DNA of 49,002 nucleotides. It comes from Pseudomonadota bacterium. GTDB lineage: Bacteria > Pseudomonadota > Alphaproteobacteria > Caulobacterales > Caulobacteraceae. The number at the start of each line of letters is the position of its first letter. The stretch's first letter is position 1. Below the pieces are notes generated by a model. The model was not told the DNA's origin. It saw only the letters and a list, made by a program, of their open reading frames with translations, and did no database searches. The position numbers were made by a program, and so were the translations under genes. This document shows positions 1 through 44,460 of this stretch, one piece after another. The DNA is taken from positions 1-49,002 of the forward strand of contig JAHWJX010000011.1 in NCBI GenBank assembly GCA_019348195.1. The letters are read 5' to 3'.

Positions 1-2
1 CC

Positions 3-77
3 GCCCTCCTGCTGTGCTGGGTTCTGTCCGGTCGCCAGAGGCGCGCGGCGGTCGGGTTGCGGACTGCCCCGGCCTGA
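3..77 (+). CDS. Possible 3' end of a membrane protein gene (partial)
   Basis: An open frame enters from the left edge and stops at a TGA at 75-77. The visible tail begins with a hydrophobic, Leu-rich stretch (ALLLCWVLSG) followed by Arg-rich residues, which looks like a last membrane helix with a cytoplasmic tail. It would converge with maeB, whose stop lies 43 bases further on. Only 24 codons are visible, so the reading is weak and no family can be named. Confidence 0.25.
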   Translation, partial: ALLLCWVLSGRQRRAAVGLRTAPA

Positions 78-119
78 CTCCCGCTGCTTGGCCCCGATGC
101 CGAAGCCGGCCCACCGTCC

Positions 120-2411
120 CTATCCCGCCCCCGCCTCCGTGCCGTCATAGGCCGCGAAGGTGGCGAGGGTCAGGAGCTGGCTGACGTTGGCCGACAAGGG
201 CGCGATCTGGACGGACTTGGAGGCGCCCAGCAACAGCGGGCCGATCACGGTGGCGGCGCCCAAAGACTGGATCAGCCGGGTGGCGATCGAGGCCGAGTGG
301 ATGGCGGGCATGACCAGCACGTTGGCGGGCTCGCTCAGGCGCAGGAAGGGGTAGTTGGCGCGGGCCGAAGCGGGGTCCAGCGCCACCTCGGGCGGCATCT
401 CGCCATCGTACTCGAAGTCGACGTCCGTGCGCCGGTCCATCAGCTCCACCGCCTGGTGGATGCGGTCGCCGCGTTCGCCCGGCGGATTGCCGAAGGCGGA
501 GTAGCTGAGGAAGGCCACACGCGGCGTATAGCCCATGGCGCGGACGGCCCGGGCGGCGCCCACCGCGATGGAGACCAGCTCCTCCGGGCTGGGCAGCTCG
601 TTGACCGTGGTGTCGGCCACGAAGATGGGTTGGCCCTTGGCCAGCACGATGCTCATGCCCATCAGCCGTTGGTCCGGCGCGGGCTCGATGATGCGGCTCA
701 CCTCCGCCAGGGCCTGGTCGAAGCTGCGGGTCACGCCCGTGACCAGGGCGTCGGCGTAGCCCAGCGCGAGCATGGAGGCGGCGAAGCTGTTGCGGTCCTG
801 GTTGATCAGCCGCTGAACGTCGCGGCGAAGGAAGCCCTGGCGCTGCAGCTTGCCGTAGATGTGGTCTACGAACTCCTCGTTGCGCTCCGACAGCCGCGCG
901 TTGATCACCTCGATCTTGGAGCAGTCGGCCGGGTCCACGCCGGCGCTGCGCATGTTCTCCAGGATCAGCTCCTCCCGGCCCACCAGGATGGCGTGGCCCA
1001 GGCCCTGAGCTTCAAAGGCGCAGGCGGCGCGGATGACGGCCGGATCCTCGCCCTCGGCGAAGACCACGCGCTTGGGGGGCGCGGCCTGCACGGCGCCGGT
1101 GATCTTCTGCAGAAAGGCCGCGGTCGGATCCAGGCGCTGCGCCAGCCGCTCGCGATAGGCGTCCATGTCGGCGATGGGGGTGCGGGCCACGCCCGTGTCC
1201 ATGGCCGCCTGGGCCACGAAGGGCGGAACATAGGAGATCAGACGCGGGTCGAACGGCGTGGGGATGATGTATTCGGGCCCGAACTTGAGCCGGCGCCCCG
1301 CATAGGCCGCGGCCACCTCGTCCGGCACGTCCTCGCGCGCCAGCCGGGCCAGGGCCTGGGCGCAGGCGATCTTCATCTCATGGTTCACGCGCCGGGCGCG
1401 CACGTCCAAGGCGCCCCGGAAGATGTAGGGGAAGCCCAGGACGTTGTTGACCTGGTTGGGATAGTCCGACCGGCCGGTGGCCACGATCGCGTCCTGGCGG
1501 ACCGCATGGACCTCCTCCGGCGTGATCTCCGGGTCGGGATTGGCCATGGCGAAGATGATCGGCCGGGGCGCCATGGTCCGGACCAGTTCGGGGGTGAGCG
1601 CGCCCTTGACGGACAGGCCGATGAAACAATCAGCGCCGTCCAGCGCTTCCGCCAGGGTGCGCTTGTCGGTGTCCACGGCGTGGGCGGACTTCCACTGGTT
1701 CATGTCCTCGGGGCGGCCCGTCCACAGCACGCCCTTGCGGTCCACGGCCAGCACGTTCTCGTGGCGGACGCCCAGGGCCTTGATCAGCTCCAGGGTGGCG
1801 ATGCCCGCTGCGCCTGGGCCGTTCAGCACGACGGTGACGTCCTCGATCCGCCGGCCGGTGATGTGGCAGGCGTTGATCAGGCCGGCCGCGGTGATGATGG
1901 CCGTGCCGTGCTGGTCGTCGTGGAAGACAGGGATGTCGAGCAGTTCCTGCAGCTGCTGCTCGATGATGAAGCATTCAGGGGACTTGATGTCCTCCAGATT
2001 GATGCCGCCGAAGGTCGGGCCGATGTTCTTGACGACGGTGATGAGTTCGTCGGGATCTCTGGTGGTCACCTCGATGTCGATGCTGTCGACGTCGGCGAAC
2101 CGTTTGAAGAGAACGGACTTGCCCTCCATGACCGGCTTGGAGGCCAAGGCGCCCAGGTCGCCCAGCCCAAGGATGGCGGTGCCGTTGGAGATCACGGCCA
2201 CGAGGTTGCCTTTGGAGGTGTATTCGTAGGCGAGGTCCTCGTCCGCGGCGATCGCGCGAACGGGGACGGCCACCCCCGGAGAGTAGGCCAGCGACAGGTC
2301 GCGCTGGGTGGCCATGGGCTTGGTCGCGGCCACGCCGATCTTGCCGGGCGTGGGCCAGCGGTGGAAGTGGAGCGCCTCCTCGTCGGTGAAGGTCTTCTTC
2401 TCGGTGTCCAT
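120..2411 (-). CDS. maeB: NADP-dependent malic enzyme with C-terminal phosphotransacetylase-like domain
   Basis: Oxidative decarboxylation of malate to pyruvate with NADP, in the cytoplasm, linking the TCA cycle to gluconeogenesis and NADPH supply. The 763-residue product has the MaeB layout: malic enzyme N-terminal domain (about 15-160, with SPGVAVP near 44 and the metal-site stretch FHDDQHGTA near 163), an NAD(P)-binding domain with GPGAAG near 198, then from about 430 to the end a phosphotransacetylase-like domain, which in this family is regulatory (acetyl-CoA sensing) rather than catalytic. The ATG at 2411 precedes [14 protein letters not shown], typical of the family. It is the last gene of a minus-strand group after rlmH, with a 67-base gap, so it may have its own promoter. 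Confidence 0.97.
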
Positions 2412-15246: not shown

Positions 15247-16077
15247 TCAGGGCCCCGGGACTCGCCCGGGGGCTGCAGCCCCTGGAGGAATGGGCGCCGC
15301 CGCAGGCCCTACGGCCTGGGTGTCGAAGAATCCGCGGAGCAGGAAGAAGAGCACGCCCAGCAGGATGAGCGCCGCCAGCAGCGGCAGCAGCCACCCGGGC
15401 AGCCCCCCGCTGCTGGTCGAGGCCGGAGCGGGCGTGGCGGGCGGCTGCGCAGCCGGCGCCGGAGCGGGAAACAGGACGGCCTCTCCCCCTCCGGAAGCCG
15501 CCGCCGCTTCGGCGGCGACGACGCGGTCGACCGCGTCCGCCGTCACGGCGGCGGACGCGCGCTCGGGAGCGGCTGCGGGGGTGGGCGGCTCGGCGCCGCG
15601 CAGGTCGAAGCCCGGCGGGAAGGCGCGTTCCACATTGTTTTCCTGTTCGCGCAGGGTGCGGCCCAGGGTGTCGGCGTTCAGCGGCGTGGGGGCGATCCGC
15701 GCGAAGGCGCCCAGCGCCAGGGGCGTGAGCATCGCCAGCAGGGCCGCCGCGGACTCCGGACGGATGCGGGCGAAGCCGGCGAGCCGGTCTTCGAGGTCGT
15801 CGGCCAGAAGGTCCGGGTCGGGACGGGCGCCGGCCTGCAGCCGGCTCAAGGGGTCGGCCAGCGCGCGCGCCGCCCCCGTTCGACGCATGGCGCCCAGGAG
15901 AGCGTCCGCCCCGCCTGGCGCGCGCCCCCGCTCGATCAAGCGCCAGAGCACGGCGGGAACCGCGGCCCCGGCGGCGCGTCCCAGCGCGTTGGGCTCCTCG
16001 TTCAAGCGTTCGCCGGCCCGGGAGAGCATGTCCGGGCCCAGCGCCCCTTGGACCAGGTCCACGACATTGGGGGTCAT
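15247..16077 (-). CDS. DUF937 domain protein with C-terminal membrane helix
   Basis: A 276-residue protein whose N-terminal 150 residues resemble the DUF937 (YidB-like) family: [20 protein letters not shown] and two repeat-like helical blocks ([27 protein letters not shown]). A Pro/Ala-rich linker follows (~160-225), then a single hydrophobic helix ([19 protein letters not shown]) and a short Pro/Ala tail. It is probably anchored by that helix. The biochemical role of the family is not established. It converges with the SpsF-like gene 15 bases away and lies downstream of the ald terminator on the same strand. Confidence 0.8.
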
Positions 16078-16312: not shown

Positions 16313-17434
16313 TCAGGCCGCCTGGGCCCAAGCCCCGTAGGGGTCCACGAACTCCGCCCCCATGGCCTGCGCCACCGCCGGGTGGGCCAGCTTGCCCCCC
16401 AGCACGTTGAGGCCGCGCGCCAGGTGCTTGTCGCGGCGCAAGGCCTCGAGGCCGTGGTCGGCCAGCGCGAGACCGAAGGGCAGAGTGGCGTTGTTCAGCG
16501 CCTCTGACGAGGTGCGCGGCGCCGCTCCGGGCATGTTGGCCACGCAATAGTGGACCACGCCGTCGATGGTGTAGGTGGGGTCGTTGTGGGTGGTGGGCCG
16601 CGAGGTCTCGAAACAGCCGCCCTGGTCGATGGACACGTCCACCAGGACCGAACCCGGCTTCATGCGCGACAGGTGCTCGCGCCGGACCAGCTTGGGCGCA
16701 TTGGCGCCGGGGATCAGCACGGCCCCGATCACGACGTCGGCCTTGAGGATTTCTTCTTCCACCGCCGCGATGGAGCTGTAGCGCGTCAGCACCCGGCCCA
16801 TGAAGATGTCGTCCAGTTCGCGCATGCGGGGGATGGAGCGCTCCATCACCACCACCTCGGCGTTCAGGCCCATGGCCATCCGCGCCGCGTTCATGCCCAC
16901 CACGCCGCCGCCCAGCACGACCACGCGGGCGGGCGCCACGCCCGGCACGCCCGACAGGAGCAGGCCCATGCCGCCATTGTGCTTCAGTAGGGTTTCGGCC
17001 GCGGAGAAAACCGCGATCCGTCCGGCCACCTCCGACATGGGCGCCAGCAGCGGCAGGCCGTTGCGATTGTCCGTCACCGTTTCATAGGCGATGGCCGCGC
17101 AGCCGCTCTCCAACAGGCCTTTAGTCTGGTCGGGGTCAGGCGCCAGGTGAAGGTAGGTGAACAGGATGTGCTGCGGCCCCAGCCGCTTCCATTCCACGCC
17201 CTGCGGCTCCTTCACCTTCACAATCATGTCGCTGTCGCGGAAGACGGATTCCACGTCCGGCTCCAGCCTGGCTCCGGCCTTGACGAAATCGTCGTCGCTG
17301 AAGCCTGCGCCCAGGCCCGCACCGGTCTGCACCATGACCTGGTGGCCGTGCGAGACGTATTCGCGGACTGCGGTCGGGGTCAGCCCCACCCGGTATTCGT
17401 CGGACTTGATCTCGCTGGGCACGCCTACGCGCAT
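16313..17434 (-). CDS. ald: Alanine dehydrogenase
   Basis: NAD-dependent interconversion of L-alanine and pyruvate plus ammonium. The 373-residue length matches the family (about 371). Seen are the start [20 protein letters not shown], the substrate-site KEPQ near 75, HLAPD near 95, the nucleotide-binding [15 protein letters not shown] near 173, and [18 protein letters not shown] near 270. The ATG at 17434 has GGGAG 8-12 bases upstream. It is divergent from gabD over 202 bases that presumably hold both promoters, and is followed by a strong terminator. Confidence 0.97.
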
Positions 17435-30823: not shown

Positions 30824-31030
30824 ATGACCGACCCCCCAGCGAGACCGCACCACCAGCCTCAGGTCGACCCCCGGCTGTTGGAGGTGCTTGTTTGTCCCGT
30901 CACCCACGGCCCGCTCGAGTACGACCGCGAAGCCGGGGAGCTGATCAGCCGCAGCGCCCGCCTAGCCTACCCGATCCGCGACGGCGTCCCCGTGATGCTC
31001 CCGGAAGAGGCTCGCGAGCTGACGGACTAA
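30824..31030 (+). CDS. Trm112/UPF0434 family small protein
   Basis: A 68-residue protein with [42 protein letters not shown], the YcaR/Trm112 pattern. In eukaryotes and archaea Trm112 activates several methyltransferases; bacterial roles are less clear. Only one Cys of the possible zinc site is kept. The ATG at 30824 lies 4 bases after the LON-domain gene stop. Its TAA stop shares three bases with the TAG of the convergent ubiH-like gene. Confidence 0.9.
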
Positions 31031-32274
31031 ACCGGCTCGCCGCGCAGCAGCCGGGGCAGGTCGCCCACGGCGCCCCCCGCCTCGGACATGAAGAAACGGC
31101 GGGCGGGCCCGATCCGGTTCACCGCCGCCAGGCCCAGGCCCCGGGCCAGCCGAAGGGGTGGGAAATCGTTGCTGAACAAGCGGGTGAAGACGTCCGTCGC
31201 TCCCGCCAGGGCCACCGTGTCGAACCGCCGCCAGGCGGCGTAGCGCTCCACCACCGCTTCCGCACCGATGTCCTCGCCGCGCCGGCCCGCGTCGGCCAGG
31301 GTCTCGGCCAAAGCGGCCACGTCTTTCAGCCCAAGGTTCAACCCCTGCCCGGCGATCGGATGGATGGCGTGCGCCGCGTCGCCCAGCAGCGCCACCCGAG
31401 GCGCCGTCCACTGCTCCGCCAGCAGCAGGCCCAGCGGGTAGGTAAAGCGCGGCCCCTCGACCCCGACCTCGCCCAGGAAGTCGCCGAACCGCCGGCGCAG
31501 GTGCGCCTCGAAGGCCTCCGGGGAGGCCGCGGCCAGGGCCTCCGCCCGCCGTTGCGGTTCGGTCCAGACCAGGCTGGCTCGGTTCTCCGTCAGGGGCAGG
31601 ATCGCGAACGGCCCGCCCGGCAGGAAGTGTTCGTAGGCCACCCCGCCGTGCGGGCGCGCGTGTTGCACGGTGGCGACCACGCCGGACTGCCTGTAGCTCC
31701 AGCCCGTCACGCCGATCCCGGCCAGGTTTCGAACCGTGCTGCCCCGCCCCTCCGCGCCCACAACCAGCACCGCCTCCAGCGCGCGCCCATCGGCCAGCCG
31801 CACCCGTGCCGAAGCCGGCCCAACCTCGACAGCCTCCACCCGAGCAGGCGTCAGAACGGCGACGCCTGAAGCCGCCACCGCCTCGGCCAGCGCGGCTCGG
31901 ATGCGGCGGTTCTCGACCATATAGCCCAGCGGCTCGCCCCCGGAACGGCCGGCGATCTCCTCGGCGGCGAAGCGCAGGTGGAAGGGCGGAGGGCTCCCCG
32001 CTGCGGCGCCGGGCGCGCGCCCGTCAGTGACCAGGATCTGCTCGATCCGGCACGCCTGCGGCTCCAGGACCTCGCCGGCTCCCAGGGTGCGCAGCATGCG
32101 AAAGCTGCTGTAGGCGATCGCCGACGCCCGTCCGTCGAAGGTGGGCGCCAGCTGTCGTTCAAAGGGCTGGGGATCGACCAGCGCCACGCGGAAACCGGCG
32201 GCCGCCAGGGCCAGGGCGGCGCTGGCGCCCGTCATCCCGGCTCCCGCGACGACGATGTCGAACCGCTCGGTCAC
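31027..32274 (-). CDS. UbiH/COQ6-family FAD-dependent monooxygenase
   Basis: A class A flavoprotein hydroxylase of the UbiH/UbiF/UbiL group, acting on ubiquinone precursors. The 415-residue protein has the FAD-binding [22 protein letters not shown] at the N-terminus, [16 protein letters not shown] (DG-type motif) near 165, and [21 protein letters not shown] near 275. Which ring position it hydroxylates cannot be decided by eye; alphaproteobacteria often use UbiL or UbiM with broader specificity. The GTG start overlaps the upstream beta-lactamase-like gene in a GTGA quartet. It is the last gene of the long minus-strand array. Confidence 0.92.
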
Positions 32275-33404
32275 GGGGCGGGCGCGCTCGGCCCCTCCGC
32301 CACCTGGGTCGCCGGCGTGCGCGTCCGTTCCCAGTGCGTCGCCACGGCGCGGGCCACGCTCGCAATCAGCTGCTGGCGCTCGCGCACCTGCCGATCCGTC
32401 CGGCCGATGTAGACCGCCACCGCATAGGTGCGGCCGTCTGGGGCGACCATGACGCCCACGTCATTGTAGCCGGCCGTGGTCTCGCGCCAGTCCGGCCCTG
32501 TGCCCGTCTTGTGCGACAAGCGCCAGCCTTCCGGGAGTCCCGCCTTGAGCCGAGCGGCCCCTGCGCGGCTTTCGAACATGATGCGCAGCAGGCGCTCGGT
32601 CGATTCCGGCGAGAGCAGCTTGCCTTCGTAGAGCATCTGCAGCGCATTCACCGTGCCGACCGGCGTGGCGCCGTCCGGCGGCGCACGCAGATACTGGTCC
32701 AGCGCTTGGTCGCGCACTTTGTCGGGCACCCGATCCCGAGCGCGGTTGAACAGGTCGCCGTCGATGTACTCCGGCCGCCACTCCAGGCCCGAGATGCGCG
32801 GCTGCAGCAAGCGCTCCTCCACCCCCACGCGCACGCCGCGAAGGCCTTTGCGCTCCAGCACCGCCTGGACCGCCGGTCCTCCACCGAGGCGGCGCATGAG
32901 GATGTCGGTGGCGGCGTTGTCGCTCTTGCTGATCGCCCACAGCAGCAGGCGGTCGATGGTGGTCTCCATCCGGCCGGTCTTCAGCGTCAGAGGTCGGACC
33001 ATTGGCGAGTTGAACAGGCTGAGGTCGGGCGGCGTGATCACAACCGTTTCATCCAGGCTGAGTTGGCCGCGATCCACCGCGTCCAGCACAGCCACCGCCA
33101 GCCACACCTTCATGGTGCTCTGCTGAGGAAAGGCCTTGTCGCCTTGCCAGGTTGCGGCCCAACCCTGCTGCAGGTCCTTGACCGCTACGCCCACGTCGCC
33201 GTCGAAGGGTTGAACCGCAGCCTCGATCTCGCTCTGAAAGCCCACGGGGGCGGGCTTAGGCGGCGGCGGGGGCTCCAGCGAAGCGGCTTCGGCCGAAGGC
33301 GCCGCGGCGGACAAGGCTCGATCGGCGATGTTCTCCTGATCGGGCCCGCTGCAGGCCGCGCAGGCGGTCGCCAGGAGTAGGGCGGCGACGGTGGCGAGCC
33401 TCAT
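32271..33404 (-). CDS. Class A beta-lactamase-like serine hydrolase, exported
   Basis: A 377-residue penicillin-binding-fold protein. It has a signal peptide ([18 protein letters not shown]), probably with a lipoprotein cleavage at Cys15 or Cys18, a Pro-rich linker (~43-55), then the enzyme: Ser96-Thr-Met-Lys99 (SxxK), Ser161-Asp-Asn (SDN) and Lys299-Thr-Gly (KTG). Glu196 in VEERLL sits where the deacylating Glu of ExxLN belongs, but the Asn is replaced by Leu. SDN to KTG spans 138 residues, longer than the ~104 of TEM-type enzymes, due to an insert around 200-240. It may be a true beta-lactamase or a cell-wall hydrolase. It overlaps trmB (ATGA) and ubiH (GTGA). Confidence 0.88.
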   Translation of the reverse strand: MRLATVAALLLATACAACSGPDQENIADRALSAAAPSAEAASLEPPPPPKPAPVGFQSEIEAAVQPFDGDVGVAVKDLQQGWAATWQGDKAFPQQSTMKVWLAVAVLDAVDRGQLSLDETVVITPPDLSLFNSPMVRPLTLKTGRMETTIDRLLLWAISKSDNAATDILMRRLGGGPAVQAVLERKGLRGVRVGVEERLLQPRISGLEWRPEYIDGDLFNRARDRVPDKVRDQALDQYLRAPPDGATPVGTVNALQMLYEGKLLSPESTERLLRIMFESRAGAARLKAGLPEGWRLSHKTGTGPDWRETTAGYNDVGVMVAPDGRTYAVAVYIGRTDRQVRERQQLIASVARAVATHWERTRTPATQVAEGPSAPAP

Positions 33405-34063
33405 ACGCGGACGAACTCCAGAAACAGGGGGGCCGAATCGCCGAGGCGCTTGGCTTCATAACGCGTGGAAACGTGGTCGCTCGGCGCCTCGCGCCAATCC
33501 GCCGCGCTCTCCGCGGTCCAGTGAAACTGGGGCGAACCCTGCATCCGCTCAAGGGTCCAGGCTGCGTAAGCCCGCCAGTCGGTGACGAAGCGGAGGACGC
33601 CTCCCGGGCGAAGCACGCGGGCCAGTTCGGCGATAAAGGGTTGGGTCATCAGGCGTCGCTTGTGGTGTCTGGCTTTGGGCCAGGGATCGGGGAATAGGAT
33701 GAACACTCTGTTCACCACGTCCTCGGGAAGCGCTTCCATCAGCTCACGGGCGTCGCCCGCATGCAGGCGCACATTGGTCAGCGCCCGTTCGTCGATGTGG
33801 CGGAGCGCGCTGGCCACGCCGTTCTGGAACGGCTCGGCTCCGATCAGCAGAACGTCCGGGTGGCGGGCCGCCTGTTCCGCCAGATGCTCGCCCCCGCCGA
33901 AGCCGATCTCAAGCCAGACGGGCCGGTCGTCCAAAGCCGGACGGTCGCCCAGGCGCCAGGTCAGTTCGGGCAAGCGCCTCTCGACCAGGCCGGCTTGGCG
34001 CGGCTTGATCGGTCTCGATTTGATCCGGCCGTAGGAGCGGATCGGCCCATGCTGGTGGGTCAG
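33401..34063 (-). CDS. trmB: tRNA (guanine-46 N7)-methyltransferase
   Basis: SAM-dependent m7G46 methyltransferase. The core shows [48 protein letters not shown] and [13 protein letters not shown], all TrmB signatures. The conserved N-terminus [22 protein letters not shown] is in frame but has no ATG, GTG or TTG before it; the codon in the expected place is CTG at 34063, which overlaps the metK TGA as CTGA, the same 4-base geometry used by the neighbouring genes. I therefore propose a CTG start (220 residues); the next canonical option, a TTG about 30 codons in, would cut off conserved residues. Confidence 0.9.
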
Positions 34064-35226
34064 GCCAAGCCTCGCAGCTGGTCGACCAGATCGGTGCGTT
34101 CCCAGGAGAAGCCTCCATCCGCGTCGGGCAGACGGCCGAAATGACCATAAGCGGCCGAGCGCTGATAGATGGCCCGGTTCAGTTCCAGGTGTTCGCGGAT
34201 GCCGCGGGGCGTCAGCCCGCCGATGAGGTCCGGCAGCGCCGATTCCAGCTTGGCTGGATCGATCTCGCCGGTGTCGTGCAGGTTGACGTAAAAGGAAAGC
34301 GGCCGGCTTACGCCGATGGCGTAACTGACCTGCAGTGTGCAGCGGCGCGCCAGGCCGGCCGCCACCACGTTCTTGGCCAGATAACGAAGCGCATAGGCAG
34401 CTGATCGGTCGACCTTGGTAGGGTCCTTGCCTGAAAAGGCGCCGCCGCCGTGCGGAGCCGCCCCGCCGTAGGTGTCCACAATGATCTTGCGGCCTGTCAG
34501 ACCCGCGTCGCCGTCCGGCCCGCCGATCTGGAAGGCGCCCGTCGGATTGACCATCCACTCGGTCTCTTCCGTCAGCAGACCTTCGGGCATCACCGCGCGG
34601 ACGTGCGGTTCGATGAGCGCGCGTACCTCCGCGCTCTCCAACCGGTCCGTGGTCTGGTGCGAGACCACGATCTTGAGCGCCCGCACAGGGCGACCGTCCT
34701 CGTACTGGAGCGTGACCTGGCTCTTGGCGTCCGGCTGCAGCGCGCGCTCGCCTCCATGGCGCACCTCGGCCAGCCGGCGCAGGATGTTGTGGCTGTATTG
34801 CAGGGTGGCCGGCATCAGCTCGGGCGTTTCGTCAACCGCATAGCCGAACATGATGCCCTGGTCGCCTGCGCCCTCGTCCTTGTTGCCCGCCGCGTCCACG
34901 CCTTGGGCGATCTCGGCGGACTGGGCATGCAGGTGGCTGGCGAAGTCGGCCTCCTCCCAGTGAAAGCCCTCCTGCTCATAGCCGATCTCGCGCACGGCGG
35001 CGCGGGCGCGCTCTTCCAGCAGCTCAGGCGTGACCGAGGCCGGGCCCCGGACCTCGCCCGCCAGCACGATCCGATTGGTCGTCACCAGGGTCTCGCAGGC
35101 CACCCTCGCTTGCGGGTCGGCTTCCAGAAAGGCGTCCACCACCGTGTCGCTGATGCGGTCCGCGACCTTGTCGGGATGGCCTTCGGACACGCTTTCGCTG
35201 GTGAAAATGTATGACGGACGGATCAA
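34060..35226 (-). CDS. metK: S-adenosylmethionine synthetase
   Basis: Makes S-adenosylmethionine from methionine and ATP. The 388-residue protein shows [60 protein letters not shown] and [19 protein letters not shown]. The start is TTG at 35226, with GGGAG 9-10 bases upstream; no ATG or GTG fits. Directly upstream lie a hairpin overlapping that Shine-Dalgarno and a perfect 16-bp palindrome, so expression is probably regulated apart from the genes before it. The stop overlaps trmB. Confidence 0.97.
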
Positions 35227-35238
35227 GAGCGGGCTCTC

Positions 35239-35259
35239 CCGGCGGGGACGAGCCGCCGG
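35239..35259 (-). promoter_or_regulatory. Hairpin in the metK leader overlapping the Shine-Dalgarno
   Basis: CCGGCGG (35239-35245) pairs perfectly with CCGCCGG (35253-35259) around a 7-base loop. On the minus strand the 3' arm includes the first two bases of GGGAG (35240-35236), the ribosome-binding site of metK, so folding could limit translation. Confidence 0.5.
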
Positions 35260-35260
35260 T

Positions 35261-35276
35261 ATAAAGATATCTTTAT
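35261..35276. promoter_or_regulatory. Perfect 16-bp palindrome upstream of metK, candidate operator
   Basis: ATAAAGATATCTTTAT is a complete palindrome and an AT-only island (apart from the central G/C pair) in very GC-rich sequence, 35 bases before the metK start and 22 bases after the stop of the xre-type gene. It has the look of an operator for a dimeric winged-helix repressor; ArsR-family methionine-cycle regulators (SahR/SamR type) are the natural candidates, by inference. Confidence 0.6.
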
Positions 35277-35298
35277 GTCCGGCAAGCGGCGGGGCGCC

Positions 35299-35784
35299 TC
35301 AGCCCGTCCGGTCGTCCGATCCTTCAGTCCCCTCGCCGGCCAGCTCCCTTACGAGTTCGAGCACCCGGCGACGCATGCGCTTGCGGGTGATCGAGCGGAA
35401 GGCGGCCAGCAGCTCCGCCTCGTCTGGCGTGCGGCTCAGCGGGTCAAAGGCGAGCGGGTCGACTTCGGACGCTGCGTCCAAAGGCTCCCGGGGCGGCAGG
35501 CCGTCGAAGAAGAAGGGAATGTCGACCTGCAGCGCGGCGGCCGTGTCGAAGAGTTTGGAGGCGCTGATCCGGTTGGCGCCCCGCTCGTACTTCTGCACCT
35601 GCTGGAAGGTGAGCCCCAGGGCGTCGGCCAGGCGATCCTGACTGAGCCCCAGCTGTTTGCGGCGGGCGCGCACGCGCTCGCCGACGTGGCGGTCCACAAG
35701 ATTGGGCTGACGGTCCCCCGGCGGCCGCGTCCGTGGCGGCTTGCCGCCTGCTGCCGAGGACACCGGTGTCTTGTGCTCAGCCAT
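35299..35784 (-). CDS. XRE-family helix-turn-helix regulator
   Basis: A 161-residue regulator with an N-terminal Pro/Arg-rich stretch and one HTH domain at about 30-90 (VGERVRARRKQLGLSQDRLADALGLTFQQVQKYERGANRISASKL), the strongly conserved alphaproteobacterial form found between lnt and metK. The C-terminal part (~100-161) is acidic then helical and basic. I chose the ATG at 35784 (MAEHKTPVSS), which has GGAGG 11 bases upstream; a GTG at 35841 would add 19 residues. It probably represses its own operon or metK; the target is not evident from sequence alone. Confidence 0.88.
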   Translation of the reverse strand: MAEHKTPVSSAAGGKPPRTRPPGDRQPNLVDRHVGERVRARRKQLGLSQDRLADALGLTFQQVQKYERGANRISASKLFDTAAALQVDIPFFFDGLPPREPLDAASEVDPLAFDPLSRTPDEAELLAAFRSITRKRMRRRVLELVRELAGEGTEGSDDRTG

Positions 35785-35846
35785 TTCCGTTTCAGCCTCC
35801 TTGCGGACCCTCTCTAAGCCTCGAAAGCGGCGATTTGTCACGCTTT

Positions 35847-37424
35847 TTACGCGGGTCGCTGACGAAAGCGTGGCAGCAGCGCGACAAGCGCCCCGGCCGC
35901 GACGAAGATCCAGAAGGGCAGGTTGCCCCAGCGGTTGAAAAGCGTCGGGCTGAGCGGGGCGGGAAGGGCGGCGTCGATCACGCCTGCCTGCCCGATGCCC
36001 AGCACCTGGCCGGCGGGTATGCGGCCGTAGGGATCGATCATGGCCGACACGCCGGTCGGCGCAGACCGTACGATTGGAACTCCGTGCTCAATGGCGCGAT
36101 AGGCGCCCAGGTTCAGGTGCTGCCAGGGACCGCTTGTGGCGCCGTACCAGCTGTCATTCGAGGGCAGGACCATCCAAGCGGGCCTGGGTCCGCGCTCGCC
36201 CACCGCATCCATGAAGATGCTCTCATAGCAGATCATGGGTTGCAGCAACGGCAAACCGGGCAATGCGATCGGCGCCGGCGGGGGTCCGGGCGCGTAATCG
36301 GCCGGCATGTTCACGAGCGAGCGCACGCCCAGTCGCGTCATCAAATTCCCCAGGGGAAGGTACTCGCCGAAGGGCAGGAGGTGGTGCTTGTCGTAGAAGC
36401 CGTTCACCCGCAATCCGGCGGGCTCGCGCTGCAGAAAGGCGAGGCTGTTGAAGTAGTAGGCGCCGCCTGGGCCGGCGCGGCTGACGCCCATGAACAGGTG
36501 CTGCCCGGGGCGGAGCGCATCCGGGATGCGGCGACCCAGCTCCACGCCCGGGGACGCGGGGTCGAACAGGTATTCCAGCGAGGCGGGCAGGGCGCCCTCC
36601 GGCCAGACCACCACGTCGACCGTCTCCAGCCCTGGCGATTGGCTGAGACGCACATGGGTGTCCACGATCCCGGGCAGCGCGCCTTCACGCCACTTCTCCG
36701 CTTGCGAGATGTTGGCCTGCACGATGCGGATCCGGGTGTCGGTGGCCCGAACCTCGGCCCCGGACAACCGCCAGGCGCCCCAGCCCCACATGGCGGTGAG
36801 CGCCAAGGCGGCGGCGGCGACCGTGCCCAGGCGGGCCCGGCGCGAGCCGGTTCCGGCCAGCACCGCGGGCGCGCCGGTGATCAGCAGGGTGATCACGGTC
36901 AAGCCCAGCGCGCCGAACAGGGCCGCGTTCTGCGAGATCGCGCCGCCGGCGGCCCAGGTCTGGCCCGCCATGTTCCAGGGAAAGCCGGTGAGCAGCCAGT
37001 TCCGCAGCCACTCGAGCAGGCCGAAGCTGGCGCCGAACACCAAGAGCCGGGCCGGTCCGGCCACGGCCAGGCGGCGGTACAGAACCGCGGCGGTCCCCCA
37101 GAACAGGCCCATCCCGGCCGGCAGGACGCAAACGATGATCGGCGCCATCCAGCCGTGCTGCTCGGCGTCGACCAGAAAGGCCTCCACCACCCACCATGTG
37201 CCCACCAGGAAATAGGCCAGGGAGAACCACCAAGCGCGCCAGAAAGCGGAGCGGAGCGGGCGCTGCGGCTCCCGCTTGCCCCGGCCGTCCAGCAACCAGA
37301 GCAGGCCGGCCCATCCCAGGACGCCCGGCAGGATGTCGAAAGGCGGATGGGCGAAGCCGGCCGCCGCGCCGAAGCCCAGGGCCAACAGAGCCGAGCCCGC
37401 CCGGCTCAGGGCGGGGTGCGTCAT
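35847..37424 (-). CDS. lnt: Apolipoprotein N-acyltransferase
   Basis: Inner-membrane enzyme adding the third acyl chain to lipoproteins. Residues ~1-210 hold six hydrophobic helices; the periplasmic nitrilase-like domain (~225-490) carries the triad Glu in VVWPEGALP, Lys in YDKHHLLPFGEYLPLG and Cys in MICYESIF. A final C-terminal helix (LPFWIFVAAGALVALL) completes the family topology. The start ATG overlaps the corC stop in ATGA. The 525-residue length is normal. Confidence 0.96.
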   Translation of the reverse strand: MTHPALSRAGSALLALGFGAAAGFAHPPFDILPGVLGWAGLLWLLDGRGKREPQRPLRSAFWRAWWFSLAYFLVGTWWVVEAFLVDAEQHGWMAPIIVCVLPAGMGLFWGTAAVLYRRLAVAGPARLLVFGASFGLLEWLRNWLLTGFPWNMAGQTWAAGGAISQNAALFGALGLTVITLLITGAPAVLAGTGSRRARLGTVAAAALALTAMWGWGAWRLSGAEVRATDTRIRIVQANISQAEKWREGALPGIVDTHVRLSQSPGLETVDVVVWPEGALPASLEYLFDPASPGVELGRRIPDALRPGQHLFMGVSRAGPGGAYYFNSLAFLQREPAGLRVNGFYDKHHLLPFGEYLPLGNLMTRLGVRSLVNMPADYAPGPPPAPIALPGLPLLQPMICYESIFMDAVGERGPRPAWMVLPSNDSWYGATSGPWQHLNLGAYRAIEHGVPIVRSAPTGVSAMIDPYGRIPAGQVLGIGQAGVIDAALPAPLSPTLFNRWGNLPFWIFVAAGALVALLPRFRQRPA

Positions 37425-38311
37425 GCGGCCGTGTCGCTGACGACCGGCCGCTCCAGCCGGCGCACCCGCAGCCGTTTCACGCGGCGCGGATCGGCGTCGA
37501 CGACGTCGAACTCATAGCCGGCGGGGTGGGCCACGATCTCGCCGCGCTGGGGTACGCGACCGGCCAGGGTGGCGACCAGCCCGCCCACCGTGTCGACCTC
37601 CTCTTCGTGATCATCCAGCGCCAGGCTTTCGCCCGCCATGGCCTCCAGGTCTTCGAGCGGGGCCCGGGCGTCGGCCTCCCAGCCCCCGGGGCGCTCGATG
37701 ATCTCCGGCGTGGTCTCCACGTCGTGCTCGTCTTCGATCTCGCCCACCACCGCTTCCAGCAGATCCTCGATGGTGACCAGGCCGTCGGTGCCGCCGAATT
37801 CGTCGATGACCAGGGCCATGTGGATGCGGGTGGACTGCATGCGGACCAGAAGGTCGGCCGCGCGCATGGAGGCGGGAACATAGAGCGCCTCTCGCCGGAG
37901 CCCGTCCAGGACGGCCGCGCTCCAGTCCGGCGCCGCGTGCTCGGGGCCGGGAGTGAGCAGCTTGACCAAGTCCTTGATGTGGACCACGCCCAGCGGCTCA
38001 TCCAGGGTCTCGCGGAACACCGGCATGCGCGAGTGTTCGGTTTCAGCGAAGCGGCGCCAGACCACGTCCAGCGGCGTGTCGAGATCCAGGGCGGCCACGT
38101 CCGCGCGGGGCGTCATGACGTCCTGGACGCGGATGCTCTGAAAGGCTTGAGCCTGGTCGACCAAGTCGCGTTCGGCTTCCGACACGGGCCGGGCGGCCTC
38201 GTCGGACTCGGTTTCCCCCAGCGCCCAGCGCCCCAGCACCCGCAGAATGCCCGGCCTTCGGGCGGACTCGTTCCCAGAACTTGGGCTTGTTGAACTGTCT
38301 GTGTCAGCCAT
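37421..38311 (-). CDS. CorC/HlyC-type CBS-domain protein
   Basis: A soluble 296-residue protein with two CBS domains (about 60-185: VQDVMTPRADVAAL, HSRMPVFRETLDEPLGVVHIKDLV, MALVIDEFGGTDGLVTIEDLLEAVVGEIEDEHD) and a C-terminal CorC_HlyC transporter-associated domain (~205-285). E. coli CorC (YbeX) belongs to the same family and sits in the same ybeY-corC-lnt order; roles proposed are Mg/Co efflux and rRNA processing. The older label 'hemolysin' is misleading. The start overlaps ybeY by 8 bases. Confidence 0.94.
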   Translation of the reverse strand: MADTDSSTSPSSGNESARRPGILRVLGRWALGETESDEAARPVSEAERDLVDQAQAFQSIRVQDVMTPRADVAALDLDTPLDVVWRRFAETEHSRMPVFRETLDEPLGVVHIKDLVKLLTPGPEHAAPDWSAAVLDGLRREALYVPASMRAADLLVRMQSTRIHMALVIDEFGGTDGLVTIEDLLEAVVGEIEDEHDVETTPEIIERPGGWEADARAPLEDLEAMAGESLALDDHEEEVDTVGGLVATLAGRVPQRGEIVAHPAGYEFDVVDADPRRVKRLRVRRLERPVVSDTAA

Positions 38312-38768
38312 GGGGAGGGACGTCGCGATCGCGATAAGGGTCCGGCGCGCCCAGCCCGGCGAGGATCAGGCGCTCGCGCCCTTCCATCGCCTCGGCCTCC
38401 GCCTCGGTCATGTGGTCCCACCCTAGCAGATGAAGCACGCCGTGCGCCACCAGGTGCTGCAGATGGTGCTCCAGCGTCTTGCCCTGATCGTCCGCTTCGC
38501 GCGCGCAGGTCTCGCGAGCCAGGGCGATGTCCCCAAGGTGGGGCGCCGCCGAAGGGGCGGCGGGGAAGGACAGGACGTTGGTGGGCGCGTCGCGACCCCG
38601 GTGATCGCGGTTGAGTTGGTGAACGCCCGCGTCGTCCGTGAGCAGCACGACGACGTCGCCCGTCGCCGTCCGATCGGAGAGAACCGCCTCCGCCGCGGCC
38701 CGTACCAGGCCTTCGACCTGGGGCAGGGCGGCGGTCCAGCTGTCCGCCTCGATTTCGACCTCGATCAT
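38304..38768 (-). CDS. ybeY: Endoribonuclease YbeY
   Basis: A single-strand endoribonuclease for 16S rRNA 3'-end maturation and ribosome quality control. The 154-residue protein carries LNRDHRGRDAPTNVLSFP and the zinc motif HGVLHLLGWDH (HxxxHxxxxxH). The ATG overlaps the phoH stop in ATGA. Order phoH-ybeY-corC-lnt is widely conserved. Confidence 0.97.
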   Translation of the reverse strand: MIEVEIEADSWTAALPQVEGLVRAAAEAVLSDRTATGDVVVLLTDDAGVHQLNRDHRGRDAPTNVLSFPAAPSAAPHLGDIALARETCAREADDQGKTLEHHLQHLVAHGVLHLLGWDHMTEAEAEAMEGRERLILAGLGAPDPYRDRDVPPHG

Positions 38769-44124: not shown

Positions 44125-44460
44125 TTAGTGAGCCGGTTCGGCGGGGGGCGCTGCGCCTGCAGCCGGAGCGGCAGCCCCGCCCGCCGCAGCCGCGCCCGTC
44201 GCCGGCATGTCGCCCGCCGGCGCCGCCATGCCGCCCGTGGTCGTGGCGCTTGCGCCCGTCGCAGCGGCGGCCGCCGCTGCGTCCGCGCTGTTCTGCAGCT
44301 GTTGATCGCTGACCATGGACTCCGGGGCCTCGGTCTTCACCTCGGCTTCGGAGACGCCCGTTTCCGCCTCGGCTTCGCGTTCGCCGCTGCAGGCGGCCAG
44401 GCCGCCGGCCGACAGCGCCAGCACGGCCGCAAGGGCCAGGAACTTGTTACGGTCGATCAT
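44125..44460 (-). CDS. Ala-rich small lipoprotein
   Basis: A 111-residue exported protein: MIDRNKFLALAAVLALSAGG signal, lipobox LAAC at about residue 24, a Glu-rich stretch (REAEAETGVSEAEVKTEAPES), then a low-complexity Ala/Gly/Pro tail of about 60 residues. The low-complexity tail suggests a flexible extracytoplasmic spacer with no enzyme domain. The ATG at 44460 has GAGGAAAAG just upstream; an ATG at 44481 is less likely. An inverted repeat lies in its leader. Confidence 0.75.
   Translation of the reverse strand: MIDRNKFLALAAVLALSAGGLAACSGEREAEAETGVSEAEVKTEAPESMVSDQQLQNSADAAAAAAATGASATTTGGMAAPAGDMPATGAAAAGGAAAPAAGAAPPAEPAH

Follow-up and report, generated by a model that had tools for sequence, protein, structure and literature searches.

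A Predicted SahR Operator Upstream of metK in a Caulobacteraceae Genome and Its Placement Relative to Promoter Elements

Results

Palindrome at the metK Locus

The S-adenosylmethionine (SAM) synthetase gene metK is located at positions 34060..35226 on the minus strand of contig JAHWJX010000011.1 from a Caulobacteraceae genome (assembly GCA_019348195.1); the whole analyzed stretch of 49,002 nt is called the window below. The gene was identified by the N, M, and C domains of the Pfam S-AdoMet_synt set and by NCBIfam TIGR01034, and its start codon is a TTG at 35226. Upstream of it lies a 16-bp perfect palindrome, ATAAAGATATCTTTAT (35261..35276, no strand assigned), followed further upstream by a gene for an XRE-type helix-turn-helix (HTH) protein (35299..35841, minus strand). 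Based on its sequence, recurrence in the genome, and conservation in relatives, the palindrome is predicted with high confidence to serve as the SahR operator; the gene for this ArsR-family regulator, which carries a methyltransferase-like domain at its C terminus, is located on contig 131 of the same assembly.

The original prediction, made from the letters of the window, described a flawless AT-rich 16-bp palindrome in GC-rich sequence, and this is what we observe: the GC content of the window is 70.2%, and 16-mers with at most two G or C begin only at 35260 and 35261. The palindrome is indeed placed close to metK, although 34 bases, rather than the claimed 35, separate it from the TTG codon.

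Four perfect palindromes of at least 16 bp are present in the window, hence symmetry alone is weak evidence, and the palindrome might have no regulator at all, having arisen by chance as an AT-rich word or serving as a structural element, for example within an RNA switch. We consider this extremely improbable. The palindrome is the only AT-rich one of the four, and its word, with up to three mismatches allowed, has a single match in the window, compared to no match in 100 dinucleotide shuffles; the Rfam search gave no match at the site, and recurrence at methyl-cycle genes, family-wide conservation, and tracking with SahR, all described below, also stand against this explanation. The other three perfect palindromes, all GC-rich, are located at 44260–44281 (22 bp), 15520–15537 (18 bp), and 16832–16847 (16 bp). 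A SAM/SAH riboswitch (SAH, S-adenosylhomocysteine) in front of metK was considered and rejected, as Rfam models applied to 34800–36200 at E ≤ 5 produced only two unrelated matches below gathering scores, neither of them at the site.

Regulon Content and the Regulator Gene

Scanning of the genome assembly (2.5 Mb, 153 contigs, 93.9% complete) with up to three mismatches yielded three palindrome sites, compared to none for the reversed control. Besides metK, these are an exact copy on contig 131, with 7 nt between its end and the probable sahR ATG, and, on contig 67, a copy with two mismatches that ends 64 bp before ahcY. The sahR gene heads a same-strand series of metF (MTHFR), metH1 (homocysteine S-methyltransferase), and metH2 (pterin-binding, B12-binding, and activation domains), which we assume to form one transcript with it. 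Thus, second copies near methionine-cycle genes, expected by the original prediction, are found at both sahR-metF-metH1-metH2 and ahcY. With a degenerate pattern at up to one mismatch, the whole genome contains 16 matches, compared to 28 for the reversed control, and the zero-mismatch matches are the same three sites; therefore, we claim no further targets in this genome.

The contig 131 gene encodes a protein of 321 residues that combines an HTH of the ArsR type with a methyltransferase domain, the former recognized by Pfam HTH_5 (E 9.1e-14) and by the ArsR/SmtB subfamily NF033788 of NCBIfam above its cut-off. It is the sole SahR-like match in this genome and provides a good candidate for the ArsR-family SAH-responsive repressor suggested as the regulator by the original prediction. 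Out of 32 NCBIfam families matched by the protein, the 25 listed matches include none named SahR. Among solved structures, the protein matched 46 distinct chains at E ≤ 0.001, each corresponding to either the HTH or the methyltransferase part and none spanning both. The SahR assignment is set by domains, operator, and targets, and homologues with 46–97% identity are present in many alphaproteobacteria.

On contig 131 (L034 10959-12723), the sahR operator also lies between sahR and a divergently oriented MlaC-family gene, and could affect this gene as well.

Conservation and Co-occurrence With SahR

Conservation of the palindrome in relatives, also proposed originally, is observed throughout the family. 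At up to two mismatches, it is present in 198 out of 199 family genomes, mostly in two to five copies, compared to 21 genomes with one or two matches each for the reversed control; the regulator (E ≤ 1e-40) was found in 192 out of 198 genomes. For analysis of individual loci, 30 family genomes were chosen to span 22 genera, giving 30 metK, 30 ahcY, and 27 sahR loci. Upstream sites with up to two mismatches were identified in 23, 26, and 25 of these, respectively, and allowing for three mismatches increases the counts to 26, 29, and 26, while the reversed control never falls below five mismatches. The loci without a site are metK in G045, G013, G016, and G104 (the latter with 95 bp of upstream sequence only), ahcY in G016, and sahR in G010.

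A separate set of sahR loci was taken from the best 80 of 332 relatives. In 79 of them (L282 was left out as having too little upstream DNA), 77 have a site at up to two mismatches, the misses being L254 and L257, and the reversed control has none below five. The closest named record is L203, with 97% SahR identity, labelled Caulobacteraceae.

The 30 metK loci also bear on the alternative, raised in the original prediction, that the palindrome is recognized by the neighbouring XRE-type protein, acting as a local regulator of metK. The xre gene is directly upstream of metK, and in the 16 loci where an XRE homologue is present in the stretch, 15 have the site (at up to three mismatches). However, the site is also retained in 11 of the 14 loci where the stretch, which reaches no further than about 1.5 kb upstream, contains no XRE homologue, so it matters little for the site whether the neighbour is present. 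Moreover, G021, having no XRE homologue at E ≤ 1e-12, keeps its metK site, G016 has an XRE gene beside metK and no site, and the same word occurs at ahcY and sahR. As the site and the XRE neighbour separate in both directions, XRE was rejected as the cognate regulator, and we regard local regulation by it as very unlikely.

A single family genome, G016 (about 2.0 Mb, 98% complete), is devoid of sites, and no SahR match was obtained in it either. Both enzymes and the XRE gene beside metK are kept, while the metK and ahcY palindromes are absent; the entire regulon seems to have been lost here naturally.

In the class-wide survey of 192 genomes, with SahR called at E ≤ 1e-20, site counts were judged against the reversed control, because counting at two mismatches is uninformative in AT-rich genomes. 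The 100 genomes with SahR contain 201 sites and 37 control matches, compared to 365 sites and 361 control matches in the 92 genomes without SahR; that is, an excess of sites over the control is confined to genomes with SahR. If only the genomes with zero control matches are considered, the site is present in 72 of 83 with SahR and in 12 of 26 without it (Fisher p = 6e-5, with kinship ignored).

An additional site context was observed in G148 (locus L023), where 31 bp separate an exact palindrome (1501–1516) from a cobalamin riboswitch downstream of it (1469–1260, minus strand). The riboswitch precedes a metE-like gene (Meth_synt_1; frame 1–1203, minus strand, cut by the locus end), which is apparently under double control by SahR and B12. 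The frame about 270 bp away on the other side of the palindrome is presumably efp.

Site Positioning Relative to Promoter Elements

For the promoter tally, sequences were aligned on the operator in 81 of the 87 loci, those with up to three mismatches, and the positioning of candidate elements differs between the three targets. At metK, TTG occurs at offset –8 in 21 of 26 loci and within two bases of it in 25, compared to a mean of 0.24 and a maximum of 3 at other flank offsets. Most relatives also have a TATGGT-like word whose first letter coincides with the last base of the operator; because of this shared letter, the word counts for less than TTG. Taken together, these words suggest that at metK the operator fills the promoter spacer between –35 and –10. 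In the window itself, a possible –35 hexamer is TTGCCG (35280..35285, minus strand), shifted by one base compared to the TTG at –8 of the relatives, and a tentative, weak –10 hexamer is TATACC (35258..35263, minus strand), which overlaps the operator and leaves a 16-nt spacer.

At ahcY, TTG is found at +23 in 23 of 29 loci (27 of 29 within two bases; other offsets, mean 0.21 and largest 2), and TAT at +46 in 20 of 29, with spacing of 17 nt. These two positions place the operator just upstream of –35: it would lie 5–7 bp upstream of the conserved –35-like element, with its center at about –50.

At sahR, a word of the TTGACA/TTTACA type is located near –13 in 22 of 26 loci (exact TTG at –13 in 11 of 26), and the ATG begins 3–14 nt past the site in 24 of 26. 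The sahR operator thus appears to cover the –10 region, directly in front of a start of sahR-metF-metH that is probably leaderless. In this genome, the TTTACA–17–TTTATA arrangement would place the mRNA start at about the ATG, which suggests a leaderless message. Leaderless mRNAs are common in Caulobacter crescentus, with 375 reported (PMC4117421; here and below, statements on cited articles refer to the available part of their text).

Downstream of metK, an open frame with a putative start (33401..34558, minus strand) holds trmB, a tRNA methyltransferase (Methyltransf_4, residues 211–370), and overlaps metK; trmB is the next gene after metK and may share its transcript. Further downstream on the same strand is a gene for a beta-lactamase-family protein (32271–33404, minus strand; Pfam Beta-lactamase2, E 8.7e-46). 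On the upstream side, a terminator scan found none between xre and metK, therefore read-through from lnt-xre into metK is possible. We infer that metK is controlled apart from lnt-xre.

Discussion

The three-site target set, comprising metK, sahR-metF-metH1-metH2, and ahcY, matches the published core SahR regulon (PMC4239095), and this supports the assignment of the palindrome as a SahR operator. An orphan-looking palindrome is thereby assigned to a published regulon with good confidence, and the main interpretation of the original prediction, control by an ArsR-family SAH-responsive repressor, is supported. Several observations weigh against this assignment. The metK loci of G045 and G013, where upstream DNA is present, and the sahR locus of G010 have no site even though these genomes encode SahR, and five family genomes (completeness 79–96%) keep one or two sites without a SahR match. 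In the class, among the genomes with zero control matches, 11 of the 83 bearing SahR lack a site, and the 12 site-containing genomes of the 26 without SahR point the same way. Finally, a sigma-70 scan of 30900–38500 found no promoter, and the metK hexamers of the window are weak.

In the proposed mechanism, SahR would bind the metK operator between –35 and –10 and block RNA polymerase. Accumulating SAH would bind SahR, which would then leave its operators, and this would jointly increase SAH removal (AhcY), methionine regeneration (MetF, MetH), and SAM synthesis (MetK); sahR would also repress itself. In this scheme, the role of SAH as the effector and the action of SahR as a repressor are taken by analogy from published work on SahR (PMC4239095; PMC8877191).

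The same operator and regulator could also act with a different effector or in a different mode, that is, by responding to SAM, as proposed for the related regulator SamR, or by activating some targets. As judged from its domains, the methyltransferase-like part could bind SAM as well as SAH, the effector of SamR is left open in PMC4239095, and the ahcY operator lies just upstream of –35, not over the promoter. On the other hand, ahcY is targeted, and PMC4239095 treats SAM-cycle targets such as ahcY as a mark of the SAH response, while the peak of sahR expression in the Ensifer aridi deletion strain fits auto-repression (PMC8877191). We therefore hold such a different effector or mode to be unlikely, and retain SAH-responsive repression by SahR as the preferred description.

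The promoter geometry poses the question of one regulator balancing SAH removal against SAM synthesis by its binding position. One regulator may have target-specific logic set by operator placement, with SahR being a weak repressor or even an activator at ahcY; we propose this only tentatively. If true, SAH removal and SAM synthesis would answer differently to the same signal. A literature search covering titles and the openings of abstracts retrieved no paper on SahR operator position in Caulobacter, and no discussion of operator position relative to promoter elements was found in the available text of PMC4239095. The different operator position at ahcY may be new, the rest being a known system.

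Indeed, the system has already been described, and the palindrome is a well-conserved, ordinary member of the published SahR regulon. SahR is an ArsR-family regulator with a palindromic operator; its core targets in Proteobacteria are sahR, ahcY, metH, metH2, metF, and metK, and in Caulobacterales it is listed in four out of four genomes (PMC4239095). It is also described as an ArsR-family regulator with taxon-specific motif changes (PMC5343134). The regulon of this genome, which is not among the genomes named in the available text of PMC4239095, resembles the published one in the ArsR HTH regulator, the palindromic operator, the site at the regulator's own gene, and the ahcY, metF, metH, and metK targets. 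The published motif is a 20-bp palindrome, compared to the 16-bp core observed here, and the two are likened by description.

Other known systems share some of these features. In Ensifer aridi, sahR expression peaked in the sahR deletion strain (PMC8877191); unlike in that system, no bhmT site is present among the three sites of this genome. SamR of Xanthomonadales is a distant homologue of SahR with metK among its targets, as here, but it has a 24-bp motif and a regulon without other SAM-cycle genes such as ahcY (PMC4239095), whereas ahcY has a site in this genome. In Rhodobacterales, another alphaproteobacterial order, a regulatory element also precedes metK; it is the SAM-SAH riboswitch, an RNA element (PMC4239095), with no match near metK here. 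In the studied lineage, metK would thus be connected not with a riboswitch but with a regulator that binds DNA and is presumed to sense SAH.
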